64,000 nt of DNA from Paenibacillus sp. FSL R7-0204 (GTDB lineage Bacteria > Bacillota > Bacilli > Paenibacillales > Paenibacillaceae). A program made the translations under genes and the position numbers. The stretch lies in assembly GCF_038002225.1 (NCBI RefSeq), contig NZ_JBBOCA010000001.1, forward strand, positions 744,001-808,000, in the 5' to 3' direction. Shown one piece after another: positions 2,193-32,122 of the stretch (position 1 is its first letter; every line of letters starts with the position of its first letter). A model generated the notes under the pieces. The model was not told where the DNA came from, searched no databases, and was given only the letters and a program-made list of their open reading frames with translations.

Positions 2193-5100
2193 TTATTCGT
2201 AAGTCTTCTTACTCCGAAACTTCATCAGGAACTCATACACCACCGGTACAACGACCAGGGTCAGCAGCGTGGAGCTGACCAGGCCGCCGATGACGGTTAC
2301 GCCAAGCCCCTTGGAGATGATTCCGGCACTGTTCTCAAGGCCTGTAACCAAAGGCAGCAGGGCTCCAATGGTCGCGAGTGCAGTCATGAGAATCGGGCGA
2401 AGACGGGTAGCCCCGGCCTCAAGCAGCGCCTTGCGGGTAGACATCCCCTCTTGCTCCTTATGAATTACGCGGTCAATTAAGACAATCGCATTGGTGACCA
2501 CGATCCCGATCAGCATCAGTGCGCCCATTAGTGCCGAGACGTTCAAAGTCTCGCCAGCCAGGAGCAGGGCAACAAGAGCGCCGATGACTGTGAACGGCAG
2601 GGAGAACAGGATGGCGAACGGTGCCAGACCGCCGCCGAAGGTGACTACGAGCACGAAGTATACAATCGCTATAGCCGCCAGCATAGCAATGCCAAGCTGT
2701 CCGAAGGTCTCATTAATCTGCTCGGTGACTCCGCCGAAGGTGATGGTCACGCCGTCCGGGAGATCAAGAGCATCTATTTTGTCCTGCACAGCCTTGGAGG
2801 CACTATTAATGTCACTGGAGATAATGTCGGCGGTTACCTCGACTTTCATTTTTCCGTCTTCACGGGTAATGGAATCCGGGGACTGGCCCTGTTCGATGCT
2901 TGCTACCTCGCCAATCGGTACAGTAATACCCAGCGGCGAAGTGAGCGTGGCGGCCTTCATTTCTTCAATACTATTGTAGGAATCCTTGTCCGTCTCAATG
3001 TAGACCTTGTAATTCTTGCCGTCCAGCTCTACCTCAGTCAGTACAGGCCGGGTTCCGGCAGGGCTCAGCTTCATCGCAAGCTGTCCGGCCGTTAGGCCCA
3101 GTGAGCTAAGCTTGGCCTGGTCAGCGACGATGGTGTATTGATCATAGGCTTCAGAGAGGCTGGTCTTCCCGTCTTTGAAGTTCTTGGTATCTCCCTGAAC
3201 GATCCCGGCAATGTCATCGGCTACCGGTTTGAGCTGTTCCAGCGTATCGCCATAGATATTGACAGTAAGGGTGCTGCCGCCGAGCCCGCCTCCGGCCATG
3301 CCGGACAGATCGCCCCACACGCCATCCGGCACCTCTTGGCTTAAGCCTTCAATTAACTTCTCCTTCACCGTGTCAAAATCAGGCGTGTTGCTGTCATACG
3401 TGACATAGAACAGCCCGGAATTGCCTGAGCTAAGTCCGAACGGGCTGCTGCCTCCGATAGAATACTGCATTTTGTCCAGATGCTTCTGGGCCAGAATGAA
3501 CTTCTCAGCCTTCAGGCCCAGCGCCTTCACATCCTCCAGCGTCTGACCGGCCTTCGGGGAGAAAGTAAGCGTAACATTCTTCTCTTCCTGGGAAGGCAGG
3601 AAGCTGACGCCGATTGGCTTGATCAGGAACAGACTGCCTGCCAGCAGCAGGACAGCAACACCCAAGGTAATCAGCTTATGCGAGAGACACCAGTCCAGGA
3701 TTCGGACATACCCGCCCGCCAATGCGCCGGGCTTGTCTTCGTGACCCTTTTTCCCCTTCTTGAGTCCATTACGGAACAGGGTATGGGCCAGTGCAGGCAC
3801 CAGGGTAATGGCAACCACCAGTGAAGCCAGCAGCGCGAATACCATAGTGAGGGCAAATGGCAGGAACAGCTCACCGACCATCCCGCTGACAAAGGCGAGC
3901 GGCAGGAAGACGGCAATCGTCACAATGGTTGAAGACATAATCGGCACAAACATCTCACGGGTAGCCGCGCTGATCAGCTCTCTGCCGCGCAGCTTCTCGC
4001 CGGACAGTGTAAGCCGCCGGAAAATGTTCTCAATGACGACGATGGAGTCATCGACTACCCGCCCGATGGCTACGGTCATGGCGCCGAGCGTCATCATATT
4101 CAGCGTAATATCCATTTGCCGCAGGCATAATACTGCAATCAGCAGTGATAATGGAATCGAGATAATAGAAATAATGGTAGAACGGATATTGCGCAGGAAC
4201 AGCAGGATGATAAGCACGGCGAACAGGGCGCCGAAGGCAGCCTTGGACAGCATCGTGTTCACGGAATCCTCAATCGGCTTGCCTTGATCCAACAGCACGG
4301 TGAGGTCCATCGACTTGTATTGTTTCTTCAGTTCTTCTGTCTTGTCCTTGACCCCGTTCACGACATCGACGGTGTTGGCATCATTGGCCTTCACAATCTG
4401 AATCCCGATGGATTCCTTGCCGTTGGTGCGGGAGATTGATTCCGATTTGCCGACTACCTCGATAGTGGCAAGCTCGCTCAGCTTCACCGTCGGCAGCCCG
4501 GTCATGGCGCCCGCGCCCGCGGCGGTATTGCCAGTTGCAGCTCCGGTACCGCCAGTCCCGCCAGCCGCAGCACCACCTGAAGCTGCACCGCCAGCGGCCC
4601 CGGCTCCCGCACCAGCAGCTCCTGCCCCGGCAGCACCAGGGGCGGAAGGAACCAGCGGAATGCTGACATTCTGCAAGTCCTCTACTGTAGTGATGTTGCC
4701 GTCAACGACAACAGCCTTCTGTGCTTTGTCCATCTCGAACAATCCAAGCGGTACCCGCAGGGAGGAGGCCTGGATGATGCCTTTGATCGTATCCTCGGTC
4801 AGTCCGTACTGCTTCAGCTTCTCCTGATTGAACTTCAGGGACACTTCTTTGACATATTGTCCGGCAATCTGCACAGAGGCGACGCCTTCGATATCCTCCA
4901 GCGCCGGGCGGATATCGTTCTCGGCAACCCGGGTCAGCTCCTCCAGATCGCCGGAGCTCTCATCAGAGATACTGAGCGAGATGACTGGCAGCGAGCTGAG
5001 GCTGAAGCGCGAGATTTGCGGCTTTTGCACATTATCCGGCAGCTTCACCTCGTTCAAGGCTTCCCGCACTGCTGCTGTTGCATTGTCCAGGTTCGTGCCG

Positions 5101-9749: not shown

Positions 9750-9951
9750 AGTTATCCTCCTGGGTCTGCTGCCGGGTCAGAGCTTTACATGGTGGCCCGG
9801 TATAGTAAGTACCTATAACGCCGGCTAAGGAGAAGTGAAGCAGCTGACGGCAAAATCCCTGAATATTCTAGTGTTACAATAAGCGCTGCTTTTCATCCCT
9901 ACCCTATCTGCAGGCGGCGAAATACATGTTCTGGTGACATAATACAGATGC

Positions 9952-9991
9952 AATTGTATAATGAGTGTAAATAATTTGTATAAGGTTTGAA
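9952..9991 (+). promoter_or_regulatory. Operator-like 11-bp repeat array upstream of the B12-type regulator
   Basis: TTGTA-type units start at 9954, 9965 (GTGTA) and 9976, exactly 11 bp apart. The 40-base block matches 31 of 40 positions, without gaps, of the block in front of the crt operon at 11112-11151. The last unit contains the TATAAG that can serve as the -10. Such helical-turn spacing suits a head-to-tail bound CarH-type tetramer, implying autoregulation. Confidence 0.65.
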
Positions 9992-10024
9992 TCTTCAAAA
10001 GTATTCAGTGTAAACAGGAAGCGA

Positions 10025-10954
10025 GTGAGAACCATCGTGTATTCCATCAAACAGGTCGTCGAAATGCTCGATATTCCCTCTGTCACTCTGCGGGCGTGGG
10101 AGAACCGGTATCAGGCTGTCGTCCCGGAACGTACCGAGTCCGGCTATAGACTGTACAACCAACAGAATATTGAGGACCTTCGCTGGTTGAAGGAACAAAC
10201 CGATAAACCGGGCATCAGTATCTCACATGCTGTGCGGATGCTGAAGCAGCATAAGCAGAAGGACCTGGATGAACGTCTGTCCGTTGCGGGCGGTGACCCC
10301 AAGGATGCCTTGGACAAAATGCGGCAGCAGATCTATGCAGCGCTGCTCGACATCCAGGGTGAGCGGGCCGACGCCCTGATCGATTTCGGGTTCTCCCTCT
10401 ATGGCTATGAGGCGATGGTCCACCAGGTGCTGGTGCCCGTTCTGGTGAAGGTTGGTGATGCCTGGGAGCAAGGGACGGCAACGGTGGCCCAGGAGCATTA
10501 CATGACGCATATGATAACGAACCGGCTATCCCAGTTCTTTCACGTGTTCCCGGTGTATGCCCATCTGCACAAGGTGCTTGCCTTCTGCCCGGCGGGAGAG
10601 CATCACCAGGTCGGCCTGCTGCTGTTCTCGCTGTTCCTGCGCAGGAACGGGGTTGAAGTTATCTATTTGGGGTCCAATACGCCTGAGGACGGTGTGATGG
10701 AGCTGCTGGCGAAGCAAGAGCGGATCGGAGCCGTCTGCTTGTCCGTTACGAATGGCACGCTGGTCCCTTATACGGAGGAGCTGCTTGAACGGCTGGGCAG
10801 CCTGTACCCGGAGATGCAGCTCATTGCGGGCGGCAAAGCTTATGAGGGAATCGGCCTCAAGGATACCAACGCCACTTATGTGATGACGGAGCCGCCGGAG
10901 CAGTGGCAAGCCTGGTTCGATCAGGAATTTGCCGTAATTCGGCATAGGGCGTAG
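10025..10954 (+). CDS. carH: B12-dependent MerR-family photoreceptor repressor (CarH/LitR type)
   Basis: A 309-residue transcription factor. Residues 5-75 are a MerR winged helix-turn-helix (VYSIKQVVEMLDIPSVTLRAWENRY, then SGYRLYNQQNIEDLRWL). The middle is the helical B12-cap domain with W147-x9-E157-H158, the Wx9EH signature of light-sensing CarH proteins. The C-terminal cobalamin domain carries E192-x-H194-x2-G197 in place of the enzyme-type DxHxxG. In the known family, adenosylcobalamin makes a DNA-bound tetramer in the dark and light breaks it, releasing carotenoid genes. The gene lies just upstream of the crt operon and shares an operator array with it. The start is uncertain: GTG 10025 has AGGAAG very close, while GTG 10037 (four residues shorter) has only weak GAGTGAG in front. 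Confidence 0.9.
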   Translation: MRTIVYSIKQVVEMLDIPSVTLRAWENRYQAVVPERTESGYRLYNQQNIEDLRWLKEQTDKPGISISHAVRMLKQHKQKDLDERLSVAGGDPKDALDKMRQQIYAALLDIQGERADALIDFGFSLYGYEAMVHQVLVPVLVKVGDAWEQGTATVAQEHYMTHMITNRLSQFFHVFPVYAHLHKVLAFCPAGEHHQVGLLLFSLFLRRNGVEVIYLGSNTPEDGVMELLAKQERIGAVCLSVTNGTLVPYTEELLERLGSLYPEMQLIAGGKAYEGIGLKDTNATYVMTEPPEQWQAWFDQEFAVIRHRA

Positions 10955-10983: not shown

Positions 10984-11038
10984 ATAGCAAAAGAACCGGT
11001 CAGAACCCTTGTACAGGGCTGACCGGTTCTTTTGCTAT
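10984..11038. terminator. Terminator between carH and the crt operon
   Basis: A perfect 20-bp stem (10984-11003 with 11019-11038) carrying AAAAGAACC and GGTTCTTTT, usable in either direction. It separates carH transcription from the crt promoter. Confidence 0.88.
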
Positions 11039-11102
11039 GGACAAGTCTAGCAACCAAATTGCTGGAAGTGCGGCGGATGATATTTACATGGCCCGGCAAA
11101 GT

Positions 11103-11151
11103 ATGTATGATAATTGTATCACTATTGTATAGGTTTTGTATAATGTTTGAA
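11103..11151 (+). promoter_or_regulatory. crt operon promoter with four tandem 11-bp operator repeats
   Basis: Units ATGTATGATAA (11103), TTGTATCACTA (11114), TTGTATAGGTT (11125) and TTGTATAATGT (11136) are spaced exactly 11 bp. The last contains TATAAT (11139-11144), the probable -10, so a protein bound to the array would block RNA polymerase. On the other strand each unit reads ATACAA, close to the TnnTACA-type sites I recall for CarH. Three of the four units align with the array upstream of carH. Confidence 0.72.
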
Positions 11152-11167
11152 CGAAGGAGGATGTCGC

Positions 11168-12724
11168 TTGATCCGAACCACAGATACCGCAAAAGTCGCA
11201 GTAATCGGCGCAGGGCCAGGCGGGTTAGCCGCCGCCATGCTGCTTGCCGCCGAAGGATATGAAGTAGATCTCTATGAACAGCAAGCGGCGGTTGGCGGAA
11301 GATCAGGAGAATTGAAGCTGGGAGACTACCGTTTCGACCGGGGAGCTACCTTTTTGATGATGCCTCATTTGCTGGAGGAGCTGTTCACTCTGGCAGGGCG
11401 TTCTGTGCATGATTATGTTGCGCTTACGCCGCTTGATCCGCTGTACTCCCTGCATTTTGAAGATACCGTATTTACGCCTTCTACGAACCAGGATCAGACG
11501 GCCGAGGAGATTGAGCGGCTGTTCCCAGGCAACGGCAGCGGCTACCGCCGGTTCATGGCAGATGAAGCCGACAAGCTGGAGCGGGTGATTCCGCTGCTGC
11601 AGCGTCCGTTCCAATCGTTAGGGGATTATGTCAAAAGAGATGTGTTCCACGCGCTGCCCAAGCTGAACGCTACAGACACCGTCTACAACCGGCTGTCCCG
11701 TTATTTCGATGACGAGCGGCTGCGGTTCTCGTTCACATTCCAGGCCAAGTATCTGGGGATGTCGCCTTGGGAATGTCCGGGTACCTTCACGATTCTGTCT
11801 TACATGGAGCACCGTTACGGCCTGTACCATCCGACCGGCGGAATTAACCGAGTGCTCCAGGCTATGGCTGGGGTCATACAGGAGCATGGCGGGCGGGTCC
11901 ATACCGCAAGCGGAGTGAAACGCATTATCGTCAAGGACGGGCAGGCCGCGGGCTTGCTGCTGGAGAACGGGGAGAAGGTGGATGCGGATTATATTGTGAT
12001 TGGTGCAGATTTTGGTTCTGCAATGACACAATTGTTCGAGCCTGGACTTCTGAAGAAATATGCCCCTGCCAAGATTGCCCGCAAAAGATATTCCTGCTCC
12101 ACCGCCATGCTCTACCTCGGTGTGGATGGAGAGGTGGACCTGGGGCATCATTCGGTTCATTTCGCAGACGATTACCGGCGTAATGTCAGAGAGATCACAG
12201 AGCTGGGCGTTCTGTCGGAGGATGCTTCTATCTATATTCATAATCCGTCAGTTATCGATAAGACACTGGCGCCTCCCGGTAAGTCCTCGCTCTATGTGTT
12301 GATGCCAGTACCTAATCTGAGTGCGGACATCAACTGGGAGCAAGAGCGTGCGGAGGTAGAGGACTGGATGATGGAGCGGCTGCAGCAGATCCCGCAGCTC
12401 GCGGGAATTGCAGGACGAGTGGAAGAGAGCCTGTTCTTCTCCCCGCTCGACTGGAAAAACCAGCAGAATGTATATAACGGGGCCACCTTCAATCTGGCTC
12501 ATAATCTCGGGCAGATGATGCATCTGCGGCCGCATAATACCTTCGAGGAGGTACGCGGCATCTGGCTGGTCGGCGGGGGAACCCATCCGGGCAGCGGCCT
12601 GCCTACAATCTTTGAGTCGGCCAAGATCAGCGCACGGCTGCTGCGGGAGCATGACCAGGCTGTGCGGGGGCGGTTCACGGTACAGGCAGGCGCGCCAGGC
12701 GCAGGTGCGGGGGTTCCGCTATGA
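11168..12724 (+). CDS. CrtN/CrtI-family carotenoid desaturase/oxidase (first crt gene)
   Basis: A 518-residue FAD-dependent amine-oxidase-fold enzyme of C30 carotenoid synthesis. The N-terminal dinucleotide-binding motif is VAVIGAGPGGLAAAMLLAAEG (about residues 10-30), then VGGRSGELKLGDYRFDRGATF, and the C-terminal FAD motif is WLVGGGTHPGSGLPTIFESAK. The start is TTG 11168, because AAGGAGG lies 7 bases upstream; an in-frame TTG at 11147 would place that ribosome binding site inside the gene. It is the first of three paralogues here, matching the crtNa/crtNb/crtNc arrangement of Halobacillus-type apo-lycopenoate clusters. Which step it performs cannot be fixed from sequence. Its stop overlaps the next start (ATGA). 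Confidence 0.85.
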   Translation: MIRTTDTAKVAVIGAGPGGLAAAMLLAAEGYEVDLYEQQAAVGGRSGELKLGDYRFDRGATFLMMPHLLEELFTLAGRSVHDYVALTPLDPLYSLHFEDTVFTPSTNQDQTAEEIERLFPGNGSGYRRFMADEADKLERVIPLLQRPFQSLGDYVKRDVFHALPKLNATDTVYNRLSRYFDDERLRFSFTFQAKYLGMSPWECPGTFTILSYMEHRYGLYHPTGGINRVLQAMAGVIQEHGGRVHTASGVKRIIVKDGQAAGLLLENGEKVDADYIVIGADFGSAMTQLFEPGLLKKYAPAKIARKRYSCSTAMLYLGVDGEVDLGHHSVHFADDYRRNVREITELGVLSEDASIYIHNPSVIDKTLAPPGKSSLYVLMPVPNLSADINWEQERAEVEDWMMERLQQIPQLAGIAGRVEESLFFSPLDWKNQQNVYNGATFNLAHNLGQMMHLRPHNTFEEVRGIWLVGGGTHPGSGLPTIFESAKISARLLREHDQAVRGRFTVQAGAPGAGAGVPL

Positions 12725-14241
12725 GCCGCATTGCCATCGTAGGCAGCGGAATCGGCGGTCTGACGGCGGCACTGCTGCTTACCCGCCAGGGCCATGAGGT
12801 GGTTATCTATGAACGGGCAGCCCAAGCGGGCGGGCGTGTGGCCTTTGAAGAGCAGGACGGCTACCGGATTGACCGCGGGCCTACCATCGTGCTGCTGCCG
12901 GAGATGCTTCTGGGTATTCTGGAAGAAGGCGGCCTTCCGCGATCCAGCTTGGAGCTGCTGCACTGTGATCCGCTCTACCGGGTTCACTTCAGAAGCGGGC
13001 GGGTGCTGACCAAATTCGCGGATGCTTCAGCGCAGGCGGAGGAGATTGACCGGCTCTATCCCGGAGAGGGCAAGGGCTTCACCCGGTTCATGAAGGACAT
13101 GTCGGTGCTGTATCCGCAGGGGCGGACCTCGTTCCTGGAGCGGGGGTATGCAAGCGGGCGGGAATTCTTTAGTCCGGCTAACCTGTCGCTGATGATCCGC
13201 CTGCGCGCCTACCGGAATCTGCGCTCTGCTATCGGCCAGTATTTTCGGAATGAGGAGCTTAAGGATGCGTTCTCCCTGCAGAGCCTCTATATTGGAGGAG
13301 CGCCCTTCCGCACACCGGGCATCTACACCATGCTTCCTTACGCCGAGCATGCCTTTGGCATCTGGATGCTGAAGGGCGGATACGGGATGCTGCCGCAGAT
13401 CATGGCCCGGGAGCTGGAAGACCGCGGGGTACAGATTCATACGGGCAACGAGGTGGAGTCCTTGCTTGTTGAAGGAAGCCGCTGCTGCGGAGTTGTTGTT
13501 CAGGGACAGTCGATTCCCTATGATGCTGTTCTGTACAATGGAGATTTCCCGAATGTAGAGCAATTGCTGCCTCCAGGTGTGTTCAAGCAGGAACAGGCAC
13601 CGGTTGTGATGGCGAATCAGGGCAGAGCCGTATCGGCTAAGGCCATAAAACGCGGAACCTGGAAGCCCTCCTCGGGCTGTCTGCTGATCTATGCAGCCAC
13701 GGATAAGCGCTGGCCGGATTCGCTGGTGCACCAGTTTTTCCTGCCGGACAGTCTGAATAGCAGTCTTCACGAGCTGTTTGACCGGGGACAAATTCCCCAG
13801 GATTCATCTTATTATGTATTTAATCCGGTAGCGCTGGACGATAGTGCGGCTCCTCCCGGACAAAGCGTGCTGTATTTCCTTGTTCCCGTCCCGGCGGTGC
13901 CGGATAAGAACTGGGAGGAAATAGCCGGAGCACTAGCCGATAAAGTCATGGCGGATGCCGAGAAGCGGGGCTTCCCCGGGCTTGCCGCGAGTGTGATCTG
14001 GCGCAGATTGAGAACGCCTGCCGATGCGGAGCAGGAAGGAATGTACGGCGGGGGCAGCTTCGGTATTGCACCGCTGCTGAGCCAGTCGGGGGTATTCCGG
14101 CCCCAGCCGAAGCCATATCCGCTTAAGGGATTGTATGCCGCAGGTGCTTCCGTGCATCCGGGCGGCGGTGTGCCAATCGTGATGCAGGGAGCGAAGCTTG
14201 CTGTTCAGGAAATGATAAAGGAGATGAGCGTACATGGATGA
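12721..14241 (+). CDS. crtN: CrtN-like 4,4'-diapophytoene desaturase
   Basis: A 506-residue FAD-dependent desaturase predicted to introduce double bonds into diapophytoene. It has IAIVGSGIGGLTAALLLTRQG at residues 3-23, AGGRVAFEEQDGYRIDRGPTIVLLPEM soon after, and the C-terminal GLYAAGASVHPGGGVPIVMQGAK. That last motif resembles staphylococcal CrtN (GASVHPG) more than the other two paralogues in this cluster, hence the assignment to the core desaturase. The ATGA overlap with the upstream gene indicates translational coupling. The step assignment within the three paralogues is inference. Confidence 0.82.
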   Translation: MSRIAIVGSGIGGLTAALLLTRQGHEVVIYERAAQAGGRVAFEEQDGYRIDRGPTIVLLPEMLLGILEEGGLPRSSLELLHCDPLYRVHFRSGRVLTKFADASAQAEEIDRLYPGEGKGFTRFMKDMSVLYPQGRTSFLERGYASGREFFSPANLSLMIRLRAYRNLRSAIGQYFRNEELKDAFSLQSLYIGGAPFRTPGIYTMLPYAEHAFGIWMLKGGYGMLPQIMARELEDRGVQIHTGNEVESLLVEGSRCCGVVVQGQSIPYDAVLYNGDFPNVEQLLPPGVFKQEQAPVVMANQGRAVSAKAIKRGTWKPSSGCLLIYAATDKRWPDSLVHQFFLPDSLNSSLHELFDRGQIPQDSSYYVFNPVALDDSAAPPGQSVLYFLVPVPAVPDKNWEEIAGALADKVMADAEKRGFPGLAASVIWRRLRTPADAEQEGMYGGGSFGIAPLLSQSGVFRPQPKPYPLKGLYAAGASVHPGGGVPIVMQGAKLAVQEMIKEMSVHG

Positions 14242-15091
14242 AAGGATACTGCAGCAATGTGAGGAACTGATGAAGAAAGGGTCCACTTCGTTCCATAAGG
14301 CGTTTGATGTTCTGCCAAGTCCCAGGCGTGAAGCGGTGCATGTTATTTATGCCTTCTGCCGGATTATAGACGATAGTGTGGATGAGCCGGAAGGCGCGCC
14401 GTACAGCATTCATGAGCTGCGGGAGCATTTCATGAATCTGGAGCAGGCGGACGGGCATTTCATCTGGCCGGCGCTGCGCTGGCTGTTCAGCAGCTTCCCG
14501 CAGCTTCAGCTTGAGCCGTTTCTTTTGCAAATGGAGGGACAGCTTAGAGATCTTACCTTCACAGCCTATGACACGATGGAGCAGCTTAAGGATTACTGTT
14601 ATCTTGTAGCGGGAACGGTAGGGGAGATGCTGCTGCCTGTTCTGCGGGATGATCAGAGTGAAGCAGCACGGACATCGGGAATTGCGCTGGGGATAGGAAT
14701 GCAACTGGTGAATATCATCCGCGATGTGGGTGAGGATCTCAGAAGAGGACGCAGATACGTGCCGCTTGAGGTGATGGACAGACATGGCTACAGCCAGCAG
14801 GAGCTTGAGGACGGAGAGGTCAATCACCGTTTCACCGCTGTTATTCAGGAGTTGCGGACAGAAGCGCTGAACTGGTTCCGGCAAGGACTTACGCATGTGC
14901 ATACGTATCCTTTGGAGAGCGGTCTTGCCATTGAACTTGCCGCATCCTTCTATGCTGCTATTCTGGATGCTGTGGAGGCAGACGGGTATGATGTTTTCCG
15001 CAAAAGATCCTATGTCAGCGATGAAGCCAAGCTTCAGATGTTCCAGCGTACGGTCGTGCGTTATGCCGGTGTAAGAACTGCGGTGGTCTAA
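14234..15091 (+). CDS. crtM: Squalene/phytoene synthase family (diapophytoene synthase)
   Basis: A 285-residue head-to-head prenyl synthase expected to join two farnesyl diphosphates into 4,4'-diapophytoene. The two Mg-diphosphate motifs are D46-x3-D50 (DDSVD) and D164-x3-D168 (DVGED, followed by LRRGRRYVP). Length agrees with CrtM (~285). It overlaps the upstream gene by 8 bases. A C30 rather than C40 product is inferred because the cluster's desaturases are CrtN-like and no GGPP synthase is present. Confidence 0.92.
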   Translation: MDERILQQCEELMKKGSTSFHKAFDVLPSPRREAVHVIYAFCRIIDDSVDEPEGAPYSIHELREHFMNLEQADGHFIWPALRWLFSSFPQLQLEPFLLQMEGQLRDLTFTAYDTMEQLKDYCYLVAGTVGEMLLPVLRDDQSEAARTSGIALGIGMQLVNIIRDVGEDLRRGRRYVPLEVMDRHGYSQQELEDGEVNHRFTAVIQELRTEALNWFRQGLTHVHTYPLESGLAIELAASFYAAILDAVEADGYDVFRKRSYVSDEAKLQMFQRTVVRYAGVRTAVV

Positions 15092-15093
15092 CG

Positions 15094-15879
15094 ATGGTCC
15101 GAACCCTTTTTTGGATCTGGTATATCATCGGTGCGCTGCTCTTAATCGTGTTCGGAATTCCGGATAGTCTGAAGTTCTCTAACGGATTATTTCTCGTATT
15201 CTATGGTGCCTACGGGTTGGACTTAGTAATCAAGGGGCAATTCAAACCCTTCATGTCTGACTGGTCAGTCAATTCTTCAGGAGGCCAGATGACCAAGCGA
15301 TTCTGGTATGCTGCGGCTCTTATCTGGTTAGGCGGAATGGCCGTCGAATGGGTAGGTGTGCATTCCGGCCGGTTGTTTGGGGATTATAATTATTCTACGA
15401 TTCTCGGGCCTTTATTGTTTGGTGTGCCGGTTACACTGGGCTTCGCCTGGATTGCCGTTGTGTGCAATGCTGTGCTGATCAGCCATGATTTCGGACAGCG
15501 CGGCCTCCGGCTCCTGCTGCTGCGGGCGGTGCAGGTTGGCTTCTGGACGGTCCTGATGGATCTGGTGCTTGACCCTGTTGCCCATGCCAGGAACTTCTGG
15601 CATTGGGAGGGCGGCGGGGGCTTCTATCAGGTGCCCTGGAGCAATTTTGGCGGCTGGCTGATTGCAGGCGCTGCGTTGTCCATGCTGCTCCCGGCTGTGC
15701 CGCTCACCCGCCTGGCTGCCCGCCGGGGCACCCGCCTGTATCAGGCGATATTGATTCTGTTCGGCCTAATCAGCCTGACAGAGGGGCTGCCTGCCTGCGC
15801 GGTGATCGCCGGGGCAGGCGCCTTCTTAGCCGAAGGGAGTCTGCGCTATGCTGGAAGCCATTCCATCGGGAAGGTTTGA
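15094..15879 (+). CDS. Carotenoid biosynthesis membrane protein (DUF422/CruF-like)
   Basis: A 261-residue polytopic membrane protein with about seven hydrophobic segments. The motifs HSGRLFGDYNYSTILGPLLFGVPVTLGFAWI and MDLVLDPVAHARNFWHWEGGGGFYQVPWSNFGGW are characteristic of the DUF422/CruF family. CruF members act as carotenoid 1',2'-hydratases, and a CruF-like gene is reported in C30 methylglucosyl-apo-lycopenoate clusters. It begins two bases after crtM ends and overlaps the downstream acyltransferase by 32 bases. Predicted role: hydration of one end of the C30 chain, providing the hydroxyl to be glycosylated. The family is clear; the reaction is inferred. Confidence 0.82.
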   Translation: MVRTLFWIWYIIGALLLIVFGIPDSLKFSNGLFLVFYGAYGLDLVIKGQFKPFMSDWSVNSSGGQMTKRFWYAAALIWLGGMAVEWVGVHSGRLFGDYNYSTILGPLLFGVPVTLGFAWIAVVCNAVLISHDFGQRGLRLLLLRAVQVGFWTVLMDLVLDPVAHARNFWHWEGGGGFYQVPWSNFGGWLIAGAALSMLLPAVPLTRLAARRGTRLYQAILILFGLISLTEGLPACAVIAGAGAFLAEGSLRYAGSHSIGKV

Positions 15880-16588
15880 CTGGTTATTCTATCGTTATAA
15901 TTCCATGTACCTGCTGCGCAGACATTTCCACTTCATCGGACTCAGCGGAGAGCTTCAGCCCGCTGCCGCTGCCGGGCGGGGGATTCTCTACCTCATGAAT
16001 CACAGCTCGTGGTGGGACGGCCTGCTGGCCTATCACGCCGCAGGGAAGCTGCCGGGGAAGCGTCACTATTTCATGATGGAAGAGGAGCAGCTCCGCAAGT
16101 ATGCTTTCTTCAGGAAGCTTGGCGCGTATTCCATCAACCCCGGAAGTCCAGGGGATGCGCGGGCTTCCCTGCGCTATACAGCCGGGCTGCTGGAGGCGGG
16201 TGAGAGTGTCTGGATGTACCCTGAAGGAGAAATCCTGCCGCTGGAGCACCGGCCGCTGAGTCTGAAGGAAGGGGCTTCCTTGGCGCTGCGGCTCAGTCCG
16301 CAGACGGCCGTAGTCCCAGTGACGCTATACCACGGCCTGTTCCGGCATACCAAGCCGGAAGCTACGCTGCTGGCCGGTGCGCCGCTGCTGCTCCCTTGGG
16401 CGGAGATGGACCGCTCGGCGATAGCCCGGCTGCTGGAGACTGTTCTTGGCGGACAACTGGAGTCACACCGCTGCAGAGTTCTTAACCATCAAGGCTATAT
16501 GCCGGATGAATTCCAGCCGCTCCTCAGCCGGGGGAGATCAACCAATGAATGGCTTGACCTGCTGCGGCCGGGCGGAGGGAGAGGATGA
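15848..16588 (+). CDS. PlsC-like acyltransferase of the crt cluster
   Basis: A 246-residue lysophospholipid-acyltransferase-fold protein. The catalytic box is NHSSWWDG (H-x4-D form, about residues 46-53) and the acceptor box is YPEGEILP. It occupies the place of the acyltransferase in staphyloxanthin-type and glycosyl-apo-lycopenoate clusters, where a fatty acid is attached to the sugar of the glycosylated carotenoid. ATG 15848 lies inside the preceding gene (32-base overlap), and the stop overlaps the next start. A general lysophosphatidate acyltransferase cannot be excluded, but the operon position argues for carotenoid acylation. Confidence 0.78.
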   Translation: MLEAIPSGRFDWLFYRYNSMYLLRRHFHFIGLSGELQPAAAAGRGILYLMNHSSWWDGLLAYHAAGKLPGKRHYFMMEEEQLRKYAFFRKLGAYSINPGSPGDARASLRYTAGLLEAGESVWMYPEGEILPLEHRPLSLKEGASLALRLSPQTAVVPVTLYHGLFRHTKPEATLLAGAPLLLPWAEMDRSAIARLLETVLGGQLESHRCRVLNHQGYMPDEFQPLLSRGRSTNEWLDLLRPGGGRG

Positions 16589-17742
16589 ATATGTTCTTTC
16601 AGGCTGTAACCGGTATTCTGCTGCTCCAGCTTTTGTTCGCAATGTGGAATGCAGCGCAGCTCCCTAAGCTGGGGGCAGCACCGGGAGCAAGAGCGGCGCA
16701 GGCACTGTCAGCACTGGCGTCCTCCCGGACCTTGCGCTTGTCGGTGCTGATCCCCGCCCGGAATGAAGCGGATAATATTGGGGATTGCCTCTCCTCCGTA
16801 CTGGCCTCAAGCACCGGTAGTACCGGGGCGGAGATTATTGTGCTGGATGATTCATCGACTGACGGAACGGGTGCTATTGCCGAAGCGGCTGGCAGCGGCA
16901 GAGTAAGCGTTCTGAAAGGAAAAGAGCTGCCGGAGGGCTGGCTGGGCAAGTCCCATGCCTGCGCTCAGCTTGCAGAAGCGGCAAGCGGGGACTGGCTGCT
17001 GTTCCTGGACGCAGATGTCCGTCTTCAGCAGGGGGCGCTTCAGGCGGCACTCTCTGCTGCTGAAGCAGCGGGCGGCGGCATGATTACAGGCTTCCCCCGG
17101 CAGATGACCGGAACCTGGCTGGAGCGGCTGGTTGTTCCCCTGATGGTCTTCACCATCATCTGCCACCTGCCCATTCCGCTGGTCCGCGGCTCCAGAGATC
17201 CGCGCTTTGTTGCGGCTCATGGAGGCTTCATCCTGATTCACCGGGACAGTTACGACAGCTGCGGCGGGCATGAGGCCATCCGCAGCGAGCTGGTGGATGA
17301 CATGGCGCTGGCCCGCGCTGTGAAACGTTCAGGCGGGACAGTGACGCTCATGGATGTTACGGAGCAGGTGTTCATGCGGATGTACCACAATGCCCGGCAA
17401 GTATGGAACGGCTACCGGAAAAATATCTATGCCGGTATCGGCCGCAGTCCGGTGCTGCTGCTGGGTGTGCTTATTGCGTATCTGTCCCTGTATGCGGTGC
17501 CCGCCGCCGCCGTTCTGTACTATGGCCTAAGCGGACAGCCAGGCGCGGCGCTCTGGCCTGCTGCTGCGCTGCTTGCAGGTCTGGCCGTGAAACGGACCAG
17601 TGATGCTGCCGGACGGCAGCCGTTCTGGTTCTGTCTCTTACTCCCGGCGAGTATACTCTGCCTGTCGCTGATTGCTGTGGCGTCCTGGCGCGGAAGCCGC
17701 ACGCGCGCAGGCTATGAATGGAAAGGAAGGCGTTATGGATGA
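16585..17742 (+). CDS. Family 2 glycosyltransferase, CrtQ-like
   Basis: A 385-residue membrane-associated GT-A enzyme predicted to glycosylate the carotenoid end group. It has an N-terminal hydrophobic anchor, LSVLIPARNEADNIGDCLSSVL, the nucleotide-binding VLDDSSTDGT, then LPEGWLGKSHACAQLAEAASGDWLLFLDADVR with the DxD motif DAD. C-terminal membrane helices follow (about residues 290-365). The combination of GWLGKSHAC and C-terminal helices is typical of staphylococcal CrtQ. ATGA overlaps at both ends tie it to its neighbours. Confidence 0.82.
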   Translation: MNMFFQAVTGILLLQLLFAMWNAAQLPKLGAAPGARAAQALSALASSRTLRLSVLIPARNEADNIGDCLSSVLASSTGSTGAEIIVLDDSSTDGTGAIAEAAGSGRVSVLKGKELPEGWLGKSHACAQLAEAASGDWLLFLDADVRLQQGALQAALSAAEAAGGGMITGFPRQMTGTWLERLVVPLMVFTIICHLPIPLVRGSRDPRFVAAHGGFILIHRDSYDSCGGHEAIRSELVDDMALARAVKRSGGTVTLMDVTEQVFMRMYHNARQVWNGYRKNIYAGIGRSPVLLLGVLIAYLSLYAVPAAAVLYYGLSGQPGAALWPAAALLAGLAVKRTSDAAGRQPFWFCLLLPASILCLSLIAVASWRGSRTRAGYEWKGRRYG

Positions 17743-19214
17743 AACCGAAGGCAGTAATCATAGGCGCCGGATTTGGGGGGCTGTCCTGTGCGGTCACCCT
17801 TGCCGCAGAGGGCTGGGAAGTCACTGTGCTGGAACGCCAGCAGCAGCCCGGCGGCAAGCTGCAGCGTGTGCAGGCGGGGGGCTACACCTTCGACCGCGGC
17901 CCAAGTACGATTACGATGCCCCATGTCTTCCGCTCGCTCTATGAGCTTGCGGGAGCCCGCATGGAGGATTATGTCCGGCTCTATGAGCTGGAGCCGCGCA
18001 CCCGCAATGTCTTTGCAGACGGCAAGGTGGTCGATTTCTCAAGGAATACCGGGCGAATGCGTGAGCAAATAGCCTCCTATAGCCCGGCAGATGCTGCGAA
18101 ATTCCCGGAGTTTCTGGAGGAAGCTTCGCGGCTGTATCAGCTCAGCGAGAAGCAGTTCTTGAACAGGCTGCTGCTGTCCTGGAGGGATAAGCTCTCCCCT
18201 TCCCTTGTGCGGGATCTGGTGCGGGTCCGGCCTTTTCTCAGCCTGCATGACCTGCTGCTCCGCTACTTCAGCCATCCTAATACGCTGGCTATGCTGGGCC
18301 GCTATGCCACCTATGTCGGATCATCGCCGTATCGTTCCCCCTCCATCTTCGCCATGCTTGGTCATCTGGAGATTCAGGAAGGCGTTTACGGGGTGAAGGG
18401 CGGCACCTATGAATTAATCAGCGGTCTGTCTGCACTCGCCCGGAAGCTGGATGTGCAGCTGATTACTGGCACGGAGGTAACAGGGATTTCCGTAGTCTCC
18501 GGTGCGGTAGAAGGTGTGGATACGGCGCAGGGCTTCTACCCGGCCAAGACTGTGATTGCCGGTGGCGATGTCCTGAGCATCAACAAGATGCTGCTGCCTG
18601 AAACGGCTCGTCCGGGAATGACGGACCGCAAGATTGAAGCCTACGAACCCTCCCTGTCCGGGCTGGTAACGCTGGCGGGCTTGCAGCGTACGTATGATAA
18701 GCTGCTGCATCATACGGTGTTTTTCCCGGAGAACTATGAGCAGGAATTCAAGGATATCTTCGAGCATAAACGTCCGCCGCAGCAGCCGACTGTGTATGTA
18801 TGCCACTCCGGTTATTCCGAGCCTGAGATGGCGCCTGCGGGCGGCAGTAACCTGTTCATTCTGGCTAATGCACCTTATCTAAGCCCGGCCTGTGATTGGA
18901 GTGAGGAGAGGGGGGCGTACGGGGAGCGGGTAATGTCTGTGCTGGAGAGCCACGGTGTGAGCGGGCTGGCTTCAGCAGATGTGCTGGAGCGATACACCCC
19001 GCAGGATATCGCCCGCGATACGCTGGCGCATCAGGGGGCCATTTACGGAATATCCTCCAATACGGTGAAGCAGACCTTCTCCCGCCCGGGCAACCGTTCC
19101 AGCGATGTTAAGGGACTGTGGTATGTGGGCGGCACCACGCATCCAGGCGGGGGAACCCCTGTGGTGTCCTTGTCCGGCAGACTGGTGGGCGAATATATTG
19201 CAAGCCATGTATGA
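17739..19214 (+). CDS. CrtP/CrtNb-like diapocarotenoid oxygenase/desaturase
   Basis: A 491-residue FAD enzyme and the third CrtN paralogue. It has AVIIGAGFGGLSCAVTLAAEG near the start, PGGKLQRVQAGGYTFDRGPSTITMP, and C-terminal LWYVGGTTHPGGGTPVVSLSGRLVGEYI. That GGTTHPGGGTP form resembles terminal-methyl oxidases (CrtP/CrtOx), so oxidation of the chain end to aldehyde or acid is the likely job. The start chosen is ATG 17739, which gives the same ATGA coupling as the other cluster genes and an AAGGAAGG site 8 bases upstream; an in-frame ATG at 17718 would lie ahead of that site. Confidence 0.78.
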   Translation: MKPKAVIIGAGFGGLSCAVTLAAEGWEVTVLERQQQPGGKLQRVQAGGYTFDRGPSTITMPHVFRSLYELAGARMEDYVRLYELEPRTRNVFADGKVVDFSRNTGRMREQIASYSPADAAKFPEFLEEASRLYQLSEKQFLNRLLLSWRDKLSPSLVRDLVRVRPFLSLHDLLLRYFSHPNTLAMLGRYATYVGSSPYRSPSIFAMLGHLEIQEGVYGVKGGTYELISGLSALARKLDVQLITGTEVTGISVVSGAVEGVDTAQGFYPAKTVIAGGDVLSINKMLLPETARPGMTDRKIEAYEPSLSGLVTLAGLQRTYDKLLHHTVFFPENYEQEFKDIFEHKRPPQQPTVYVCHSGYSEPEMAPAGGSNLFILANAPYLSPACDWSEERGAYGERVMSVLESHGVSGLASADVLERYTPQDIARDTLAHQGAIYGISSNTVKQTFSRPGNRSSDVKGLWYVGGTTHPGGGTPVVSLSGRLVGEYIASHV

Positions 19215-19518: not shown

Positions 19519-20664
19519 ATGAATGATATGCCGCGAAACGGTGTGCCGCAGAGCGCTGTGGAGCCGTCAGTAACAGAGCCCCCGCCAGGGCAGGAGGCAG
19601 CAGGCCCAGGCCTTGCCGGACATAAATCTCTGCTGCCCGACTCCAGAACAGGGGAACGGAAGATTGAGCATGTACGGCTCTGCCTGAATGAAGATGTGGC
19701 CGGCAGCGGAATTACAACCGGGTTCGAGCAGTACCGGTTTCGCCATAACGCGCTGCCTGAGCTGGATTACGATACCATCTCACTGGGCACTGAATTCTTA
19801 GGCCGTGCGCTGCGTACCCCGCTGCTGATCAGCTCCATGACGGGGGGAAGCGCGGCTACAGGGAAGATTAATGAGCGGCTGGCCGAAGCGGCGGAGCGCC
19901 GGGGCTGGGCGCTGGGAGTCGGCTCAGTGCGCGCGGCTGTAGAACGCGCGGAGCTGGCGGCTACCTTCCATGTGCGGGCCAAGGCACCCACGATTCCGGT
20001 CATTGCCAATGTCGGAGCCGTGCAGCTCGCCTACGGCTTCGGGGTAGAAGAATGCCGCCGGGCGGTTGAGATTGCCGGAGCGGACTGGCTGGTTCTCCAT
20101 CTGAACGGGCTGCAGGAGGTATTCCAGCCCGAGGGTGACACCGGCTTCGGTTCTCTGCTGAAGCGGATAGAGGCATTATGCCGGACCCTTGAGATTCCAG
20201 TGGGGATCAAGGAGGTCGGCTGGGGGATTGACGGCGATACCGCCGCCCGGCTGTATCAGGCGGGCGCTGCCTTCATTGATGTAGCCGGAGCTGGCGGCAC
20301 TTCCTGGAGCCAGGTAGAGAAGTTCCGCAGCATCGACCCGGTACGGCGTGCGGCAGCTGAGGCCTTCGCCGACTGGGGCATTCCCACAGCGGAGTGCATT
20401 GCCGAGGTCCGCGCGGTCTCCCCGCACGGGGCATTGATCGGCAGCGGCGGGCTGAAGCACGGCGTCGATGCCGCCAAGGCGCTGGCCCTTGGCGCTGATC
20501 TGGCGGGCTTCGGACGGGGGCTGCTGGGTCCGGCCGTCAGCTCCGAGGAGGCGCTGGACCAGGCGCTGGCCCAGGTAGAGCTGGAGCTGCGGACGGTGAT
20601 GTTCGGCATCGGCGCGCCGGACCTTGCCGCACTGCGCGGAACGCCCCGTCTGGTCCGGCGCTGA
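19519..20664 (+). CDS. fni: Type 2 isopentenyl-diphosphate delta-isomerase
   Basis: FMN- and NADPH-dependent interconversion of IPP and DMAPP, feeding prenyl synthesis. The 381-residue TIM-barrel enzyme shows HVRLCLNEDVAGSGITTGFEQYRF, then LISSMTGGSAATGKINERLAEAAERRGWALGVGS (the flavin and substrate segment), VKEVGWG-like IKEVGWGI, VAGAGGTSW and GSGGLKHGVDAAKALALGADLAG. Length is slightly above the usual ~350 because of a Pro/Glu-rich N-terminal extension of about 40 residues. It starts at ATG 19519 after GGAGG. Next to the crt cluster it probably boosts the isoprenoid precursor supply for pigment, though it may serve the cell generally. Confidence 0.95.
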   Translation: MNDMPRNGVPQSAVEPSVTEPPPGQEAAGPGLAGHKSLLPDSRTGERKIEHVRLCLNEDVAGSGITTGFEQYRFRHNALPELDYDTISLGTEFLGRALRTPLLISSMTGGSAATGKINERLAEAAERRGWALGVGSVRAAVERAELAATFHVRAKAPTIPVIANVGAVQLAYGFGVEECRRAVEIAGADWLVLHLNGLQEVFQPEGDTGFGSLLKRIEALCRTLEIPVGIKEVGWGIDGDTAARLYQAGAAFIDVAGAGGTSWSQVEKFRSIDPVRRAAAEAFADWGIPTAECIAEVRAVSPHGALIGSGGLKHGVDAAKALALGADLAGFGRGLLGPAVSSEEALDQALAQVELELRTVMFGIGAPDLAALRGTPRLVRR

Positions 20665-31952: not shown

Positions 31953-32002
31953 AGTGGTTGATTTTTTGAGGGCTATCCCTTAAGATGTAATAAATATGAT
32001 CC

Positions 32003-32122
32003 GGTTCCGGTGTAACTGGCGACAAGTGTGGATGAAACCACGATGGAGCACCTGGAATAAACGGCCGGTCGCCTGGGCAAAAGAGCACATCCGCAGTTCA
32101 ACCTGCGGACTGCTCTTTTTTG
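32003..32122 (+). promoter_or_regulatory. ZTP (pfl) riboswitch with terminator, upstream of ywlG-glyA
   Basis: The leader contains the pfl hallmarks: GTAACTGGCGACAAGTG..CCAC..GGAGCACC with P1 TTCCGGTG/CACC.GGAA (32005-32060), a short linker, then the conserved CGCCTGGGC (32070-32078). An intrinsic terminator follows at once (AAAAGAGCA..CCGCAG with CTGCGG..TGCTCTTTT, 32079-32119, plus T-run). Known ZTP riboswitches sense ZMP/ZTP, which build up when 10-formyl-THF is short, and switch on one-carbon genes such as glyA. The genes downstream fit that logic. Confidence 0.88.

Follow-up and report, generated by a model that had tools for sequence, protein, structure and literature searches.

Tandem 11-bp repeats at the crt and carH promoters of Paenibacillus sp. 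FSL R7-0204 as probable operators of the B12-dependent photoreceptor CarH

Two arrays of tandem 11-bp repeats were identified in a 64,000-nucleotide stretch of the Paenibacillus sp. FSL R7-0204 genome (GCF_038002225.1, contig NZ_JBBOCA010000001.1, positions 744,001 to 808,000; hereafter the window), one at the promoter of the crt cluster and the other at the promoter of carH. It is highly likely that both arrays are operators of CarH, the B12-dependent photoreceptor-repressor encoded between them, which would control the crt genes and its own gene. In the dark, AdoCbl-loaded CarH would occupy the tandem repeats. As these start at the -10 and run past the start site into the leader, the bound protein would keep RNA polymerase from both the crt promoter and the carH promoter. 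In the light, the Co-C bond would be cleaved and CarH released, and crt and carH would then be transcribed. For the Paenibacillus protein, binding of AdoCbl, the oligomeric state, repression and release by light are those expected by analogy with characterised homologues. The coordinates of the features are given in Table 1.

Table 1. Operator units, promoter elements and neighbouring features; coordinates are those of the window, except for the extra arrays, which are numbered within their own loci
Feature	Position	Strand	Basis
-35 of carH promoter, GTGACA	9934-9939	+	promoter scan; conservation
-10 of carH promoter, TATAAT, within operator unit 1	9957-9962	+	promoter scan; conservation
carH operator unit 1, TTGTATAATGA	9954-9964	+	pattern scan
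carH operator unit 2, GTGTAAATAAT	9965-9975	+	pattern scan
carH operator unit 3, TTGTATAAGGT	9976-9986	+	pattern scan
carH degenerate fourth unit, TTGAATCTTCA	9987-9997	+	pattern scan
carH (MerR-type DNA-binding domain and two B12-binding domains)	10025-10954	+	profile matches, alignment
Hairpin between carH and crt	10984-11038	+	-40.7 kcal/mol, z -9.65, 0/200 shuffles as good
-35 of crt promoter, TTTACA	11083-11088	+	promoter scan; conservation
-10 of crt promoter, TATGAT, within operator unit 1	11106-11111	+	promoter scan; conservation
crt operator unit 1, ATGTATGATAA	11103-11113	+	pattern scan, direct reading
crt operator unit 2, TTGTATCACTA	11114-11124	+	pattern scan, direct reading
crt operator unit 3, TTGTATAGGTT, full TGTnnA repeat	11125-11135	+	pattern scan, direct reading
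crt operator unit 4, TTGTATAATGT, full TGTnnA repeat; includes TATAAT 11139-11144	11136-11146	+	pattern scan, direct reading
crt degenerate fifth phase, TTGAACGAAGG, extends into ribosome-binding site	11147-11157	+	pattern scan
Ribosome-binding site GAAGGAGG of first crt gene (TTG start 11168)	11153-11160	+	direct reading
crtI-family phytoene desaturase, first crt gene	11168-12724	+	TIGR02734, 472 bits, cut-off 238
Extra four-unit array, L080 (same genome as L127)	~7864-7902		
Extra four-unit array, L125	3987-4025		
Extra four-unit array, L127 (same genome as L080)	~3864-3902		

Direct reading of the crt promoter region revealed four exact WTGTAT units, starting at 11103, 11114, 11125 and 11136 with a spacing of 11 bp as the initial annotation had held, and the three-unit pattern matched without mismatch from both 11103 and 11114. 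The three-unit, 11-bp phasing proposed for carH could also be confirmed (TTGTAT at 9954, GTGTAA at 9965 and TTGTAT at 9976). Ungapped comparison of the carH block (9952-9991) with the crt block (11112-11151) reproduced the earlier value of 31 identical positions out of 40; a scan of the crt block against the window on both strands ranked the carH block as its top match elsewhere, the runner-up outside the array reaching 24/40. Each array carries at its 3' end a degenerate extra unit in phase (TTGAAC at 11147 for crt, TTGAAT at 9987 for carH), and alignment of the loci revealed that the fifth phase at crt is nearer to a true unit in some relatives (TTGTAC, TTGTAA). When up to three mismatches were allowed, the three-unit pattern produced five matches in the window, all inside the crt and carH arrays, compared to a mean of 0.12 and a maximum of two in 100 shuffles. 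Four exact phased units are expected about 3e-9 times in 64 kb on both strands at the mean base composition of the window, a figure that local A+T richness would raise, though not to relevance. A chance origin of the arrays is excluded.

The motif TGTnnA is the reverse complement of the published TnnACA rule. Full repeats of this kind could be counted in three of the four carH phases (9954-9987), together with one pseudo-repeat, and in two of the five crt phases (units 3 and 4), where units 1 and 2 keep TGT without the A and the fifth phase is degenerate. The features of a CarH operator found here are at least three tandem 11-bp repeats, TnnACA in the full repeats, and overlap with a promoter hexamer at both promoters.

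Promoter scanning identified TTTACA-N17-TATGAT (11083-11111, score 10/12) for crt and GTGACA-N17-TATAAT (9934-9962, score 11/12) for carH. In both, the -10 starts three bases into unit 1, and the first unit is thus the likely seat of the -10 at either promoter. With this placement, the arrays begin at the -10, cover the start site and reach the early leader, the predicted transcription starts lying at about 11118 (crt, in unit 2) and about 9969 (carH). On the minus strand, the scan scored three weaker sites that overlie the arrays (9/12). The hairpin between carH and crt is likely a terminator, which could work both ways, and separate transcription of the two fits with such a strong intergenic structure.

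The crt cluster (11168-19214) consists of three crtI-family desaturases, a squalene/phytoene synthase family gene, a CruF-like gene, an acyltransferase and a glycosyltransferase, a content that suggests a glycosylated, acylated carotenoid as the product. A type 2 IPP isomerase is encoded downstream of the cluster (19519-20664). An Rfam scan found no cobalamin riboswitch in the window; its sole match was a ZMP/ZTP riboswitch at 32002-32085 (55.1 bits).

Conservation was assessed by searching 100 Paenibacillus genomes, of which 45 encoded CarH at a match threshold of E 1e-40 or better. By hand count, 40 of these 45 genomes carried a three-unit array with no more than one mismatch at a distance of up to 250 bp from carH. 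In the remaining five (G032, G050, G077, G089 and G092), no close array was found at one mismatch or fewer. Weaker carH arrays could be seen by eye in four of them (L119, L122, L118, and G092 through L094, the upstream stretch of which is that of L037), while G077 (L124, protein 39% identical) had no convincing array. A zero-mismatch triple in G050 lay in AT-rich sequence, next to an uncharacterised ORF, and was dropped. In G092 and G113, the carH frame runs uninterrupted from its VYSIKQ-type start to its stop codon, the flagged TGA falling outside the gene. In the 55 genomes that lacked a CarH match, the pattern had 14 hits, spread over 10 genomes, and its reversed control equally had 14 in 10; zero-mismatch matches occurred there only in G051 and G086, both as perfect simple tandem repeats. 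At one mismatch, the pattern matched 15 of 16 genomes of named relatives, compared to 3 control hits in the same 16; the array of the remaining one, L037, is weaker.

The promoter elements were counted over 45 distinct loci, obtained from 61 examined loci at 98% carH DNA identity by ungapped comparison, a procedure that may have left a few close relatives as separate loci. Of the called arrays, 40 of 41 at carH and 33 of 42 at crt had the -10 three bases into unit 1, the doubtful calls of L124 (G077) being included in both totals. In the other crt arrays, the -10 fell in the next counted unit in six (L117 and L118 with other -35 letters) and was different in three. The crt -35 was TTTACA in 35 of the 42 loci and TTTACT in three more, the -10 was TATGAT in 34/42, and a spacing of 17 was found in 39/42. 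ATGACA, GTGACA or TCGACA was present as the carH -35 in 40 of the 41 arrays. The carH arrays of L037, L097, L098 and L099 were not called, the score of unit 2 being too low for the threshold, but can be seen in the aligned loci. L121-L123 have the carH array, whereas the 330 bases downstream of carH yielded no called array. The number of good units per array ranged from three to five across the genus (three to six by a looser count); crt arrays include three units in P. monticola (L040) and four plus a degenerate one in many loci, and five-unit arrays occur in L097 and L098. The units, their 11-bp phasing and the promoters are thus conserved in relatives, and the absence of conservation in related species, which the initial annotation had named as grounds for rejecting the operator, was not observed.

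Scanning of the whole Paenibacillus sp. FSL R7-0204 genome with up to three mismatches revealed 54 places, five of them at crt/carH, compared to 44 for the reversed control pattern, so that no excess of targets beyond crt/carH can be claimed. L005 and L006 are single-mismatch places elsewhere in this genome and had no other support as targets. L005 is a triple array at 1501-1528, outside the crt/carH region, with an exact copy in G083 and G099; an exact copy of the L006 array is present in one other genome, G062. CarH has an Spx link in B. megaterium; a rough cysteine-motif scan found no Spx-like gene near L003-L032 (30 of the 54 places). A four-unit CarH-like array was observed where the genes for an FAD oxidoreductase and a GGDEF-EAL protein diverge, in P. 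monticola (G008 and G053, the same genome) and in G091. The crt arrays of these two genomes have only three good units each (L040, L103). The extra array hints at a wider light regulon in P. monticola and G091.

Domain analysis of the CarH protein revealed matches above the cut-offs to PF13411 (MerR-type HTH), PF02607 (B12-binding_2) and PF02310 (B12-binding). The GTG at 10037 is an alternative start, which coincides with the first residue in several relatives. The protein aligns with Thermus CarH (3whp, 5c8d) and contains the RxWExRY recognition helix, the W-x9-EH motif WEQGTATVAQEH from residue W147, and the ExHxxG B12 motif as EHHQVG. The strict motif D/ExHx2G/P-x41-SxT/V-x22-27-GG was unmatched; reading by hand gave EHHQVG-x42-SVT-x26-GG, with one extra residue in the middle. 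The NCBIfam CarH equivalog NF052513 was the best hit at 144.7 bits, below its cut-off of 400, a model that is no published defining feature. CarH is the sole full-length relative in the genome, the second hit being a weak, partial one to a different, long frame. The genome also encodes an adenosyltransferase (Cob_adeno_trans, PF01923), by which AdoCbl could plausibly be made from cobalamin. The alignment also showed His-Asn in place of the Arg-Asp dimer-interface pair of Thermus CarH, which we take to be positions 176 and 201.

According to passages in PMC10442372 and PMC4557120, His132 of Thermus CarH, the residue after Trp, becomes the upper cobalt ligand in the light. In contrast, the Paenibacillus protein has Glu at this position (window 10463-10498, CarH residues 147-158). 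Glu was found there in all 17 Paenibacillus proteins aligned and in 285 of 300 CarH relatives listed, made up of the best 120 of each of three protein searches, all with Bacilli queries; one of the others has His, ten have other residues and four lack the W-x9-EH pattern. B. megaterium CarH was not found by name in two protein searches (best 120 of 309 and of 798 matches).

Comparison by description with the Bacillus (Priestia) megaterium CarH/LitR operators, as given in passages of PMC9304148 and PMC8156234, revealed the same tandem 11-bp direct repeats overlapping a promoter. B. megaterium CarH binds four such repeats, or three plus a pseudo-repeat, over the -35 or the -10, whereas both Paenibacillus arrays start at the -10 and extend downstream over the start site, and their number of good units varies over the range given above. 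As four-repeat operators are already described there, the view of the crt array as unusually complete is not supported; neither does a weaker site at carH follow from the sequence, the TnnACA rule giving carH three full repeats against two at crt. The notion of one unit per subunit also differs from the case of Thermus CarH, where, in the account of PMC9304148, three repeats are contacted by three DNA-binding domains of the protein. The Thermus thermophilus operator is alike in its 11-bp direct repeats, with the consensus nAnnTnnACAn according to PMC8156234, and unlike in having three repeats, one of which includes the -35. The myxobacterial Pcrt operators (DR/dr arrays), as outlined in PMC9304148, similarly mix full and pseudo-repeats in 11-bp phase; unlike the arrays described here, the -35 lies inside a repeat in Cystobacterineae, and a CarA/CarS layer is present. 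Among the papers listed by literature searches pairing Paenibacillus with CarH or LitR, no description of these operators was seen, those on CarH mentioning Paenibacillus only once each and those on LitR having no title on photoregulation in the genus, and no binding, light or B12 experiment on this CarH was found in the literature searched. The Paenibacillus arrays are very probably a well-conserved further example of a known CarH control site, not a new mechanism. Of the initial annotation, a conserved CarH-type 11-bp operator common to crt and carH is supported, while its claims on completeness, subunit number and a weaker carH site, and its -10 in the last unit, are not.

The last of these claims would place the operator upstream of the start site, with the TATAAT of the last crt unit (11139-11144) serving as the -10. 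Its TATAA is preserved in most relatives; however, the repeat rule itself requires A at unit position 7, as part of TGTnnA, which gives this conservation another cause. The scan found no -35 at 16-18 bp from the last-unit TATAAT, and the conserved upstream pair TTTACA-17-TATGAT puts the -10 in the first unit, making the alternative improbable. Far less likely still is that the arrays represent an AT-rich tandem-repeat expansion or a promoter remnant without a regulator. G051 and G086, genomes without a CarH match, do contain perfect 11-bp tandem repeats, but the arrays discussed here keep their hexamers while the five spacer bases differ between units and species, are common to both promoters and track carH.

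CarH binding to the arrays might also depend on B12 alone, with hardly any response to light, the ligand-switch His being Glu. The prevalence of Glu among the relatives listed agrees with this, as does the impaired light-driven tetramer disassembly of Thermus H132A, most of which stays tetrameric after light exposure in the account given by PMC10442372. However, the same source mentions an earlier contrary report in which H132A does disassemble in light, and a statement in PMC9304148 ascribes the His ligand to "many" CarH homologues, so its absence is not unprecedented; nor is this His a defining feature of CarH (class I LitR) photoreceptors. The light response of B. megaterium CarH/LitR, described in passages of PMC9304148 and PMC9758184, may also count against a B12-only response. 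We regard a B12-only response as having a small chance of being correct. The interpretation of both arrays as CarH operators is favoured by their occurrence far above chance, their tracking of carH across genomes, the conserved place of the -10 in unit 1, the sequence motifs of CarH, the adenosyltransferase gene and the published CarH operators with tandem 11-bp repeats and TnnACA. It is weakened by the sub-threshold NF052513 score, by Glu for His132 and His-Asn for Arg-Asp, by the missing A in crt units 1 and 2, and by the five CarH-encoding genomes without a close array.

A broader model can be put forward tentatively, and we consider it possible rather than likely. Bacilli CarH proteins of this type may be B12 light switches without the upper-face His of Thermus, in which light release might proceed via water- or Glu-ligated cobalamin, perhaps stopping at dimers. 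Such dimers may read tandem operators starting at the -10, and the regulon in two Paenibacillus genomes might also reach the GGDEF-EAL (c-di-GMP) gene or the FAD oxidoreductase.

With the promoter placement corrected relative to the initial annotation, the two arrays very probably represent a real, well-conserved CarH operator pair. They provide a clean genus-wide phylogenetic footprint of the CarH operator, showing the promoter hexamers and the phase and number of the units over 45 distinct loci. Since three-, four- and five-unit versions occur naturally at one promoter, the number of repeats that CarH needs can be tested directly, and the conserved Glu offers a natural background in which to test the disputed role of the Thermus ligand His132 that it replaces.
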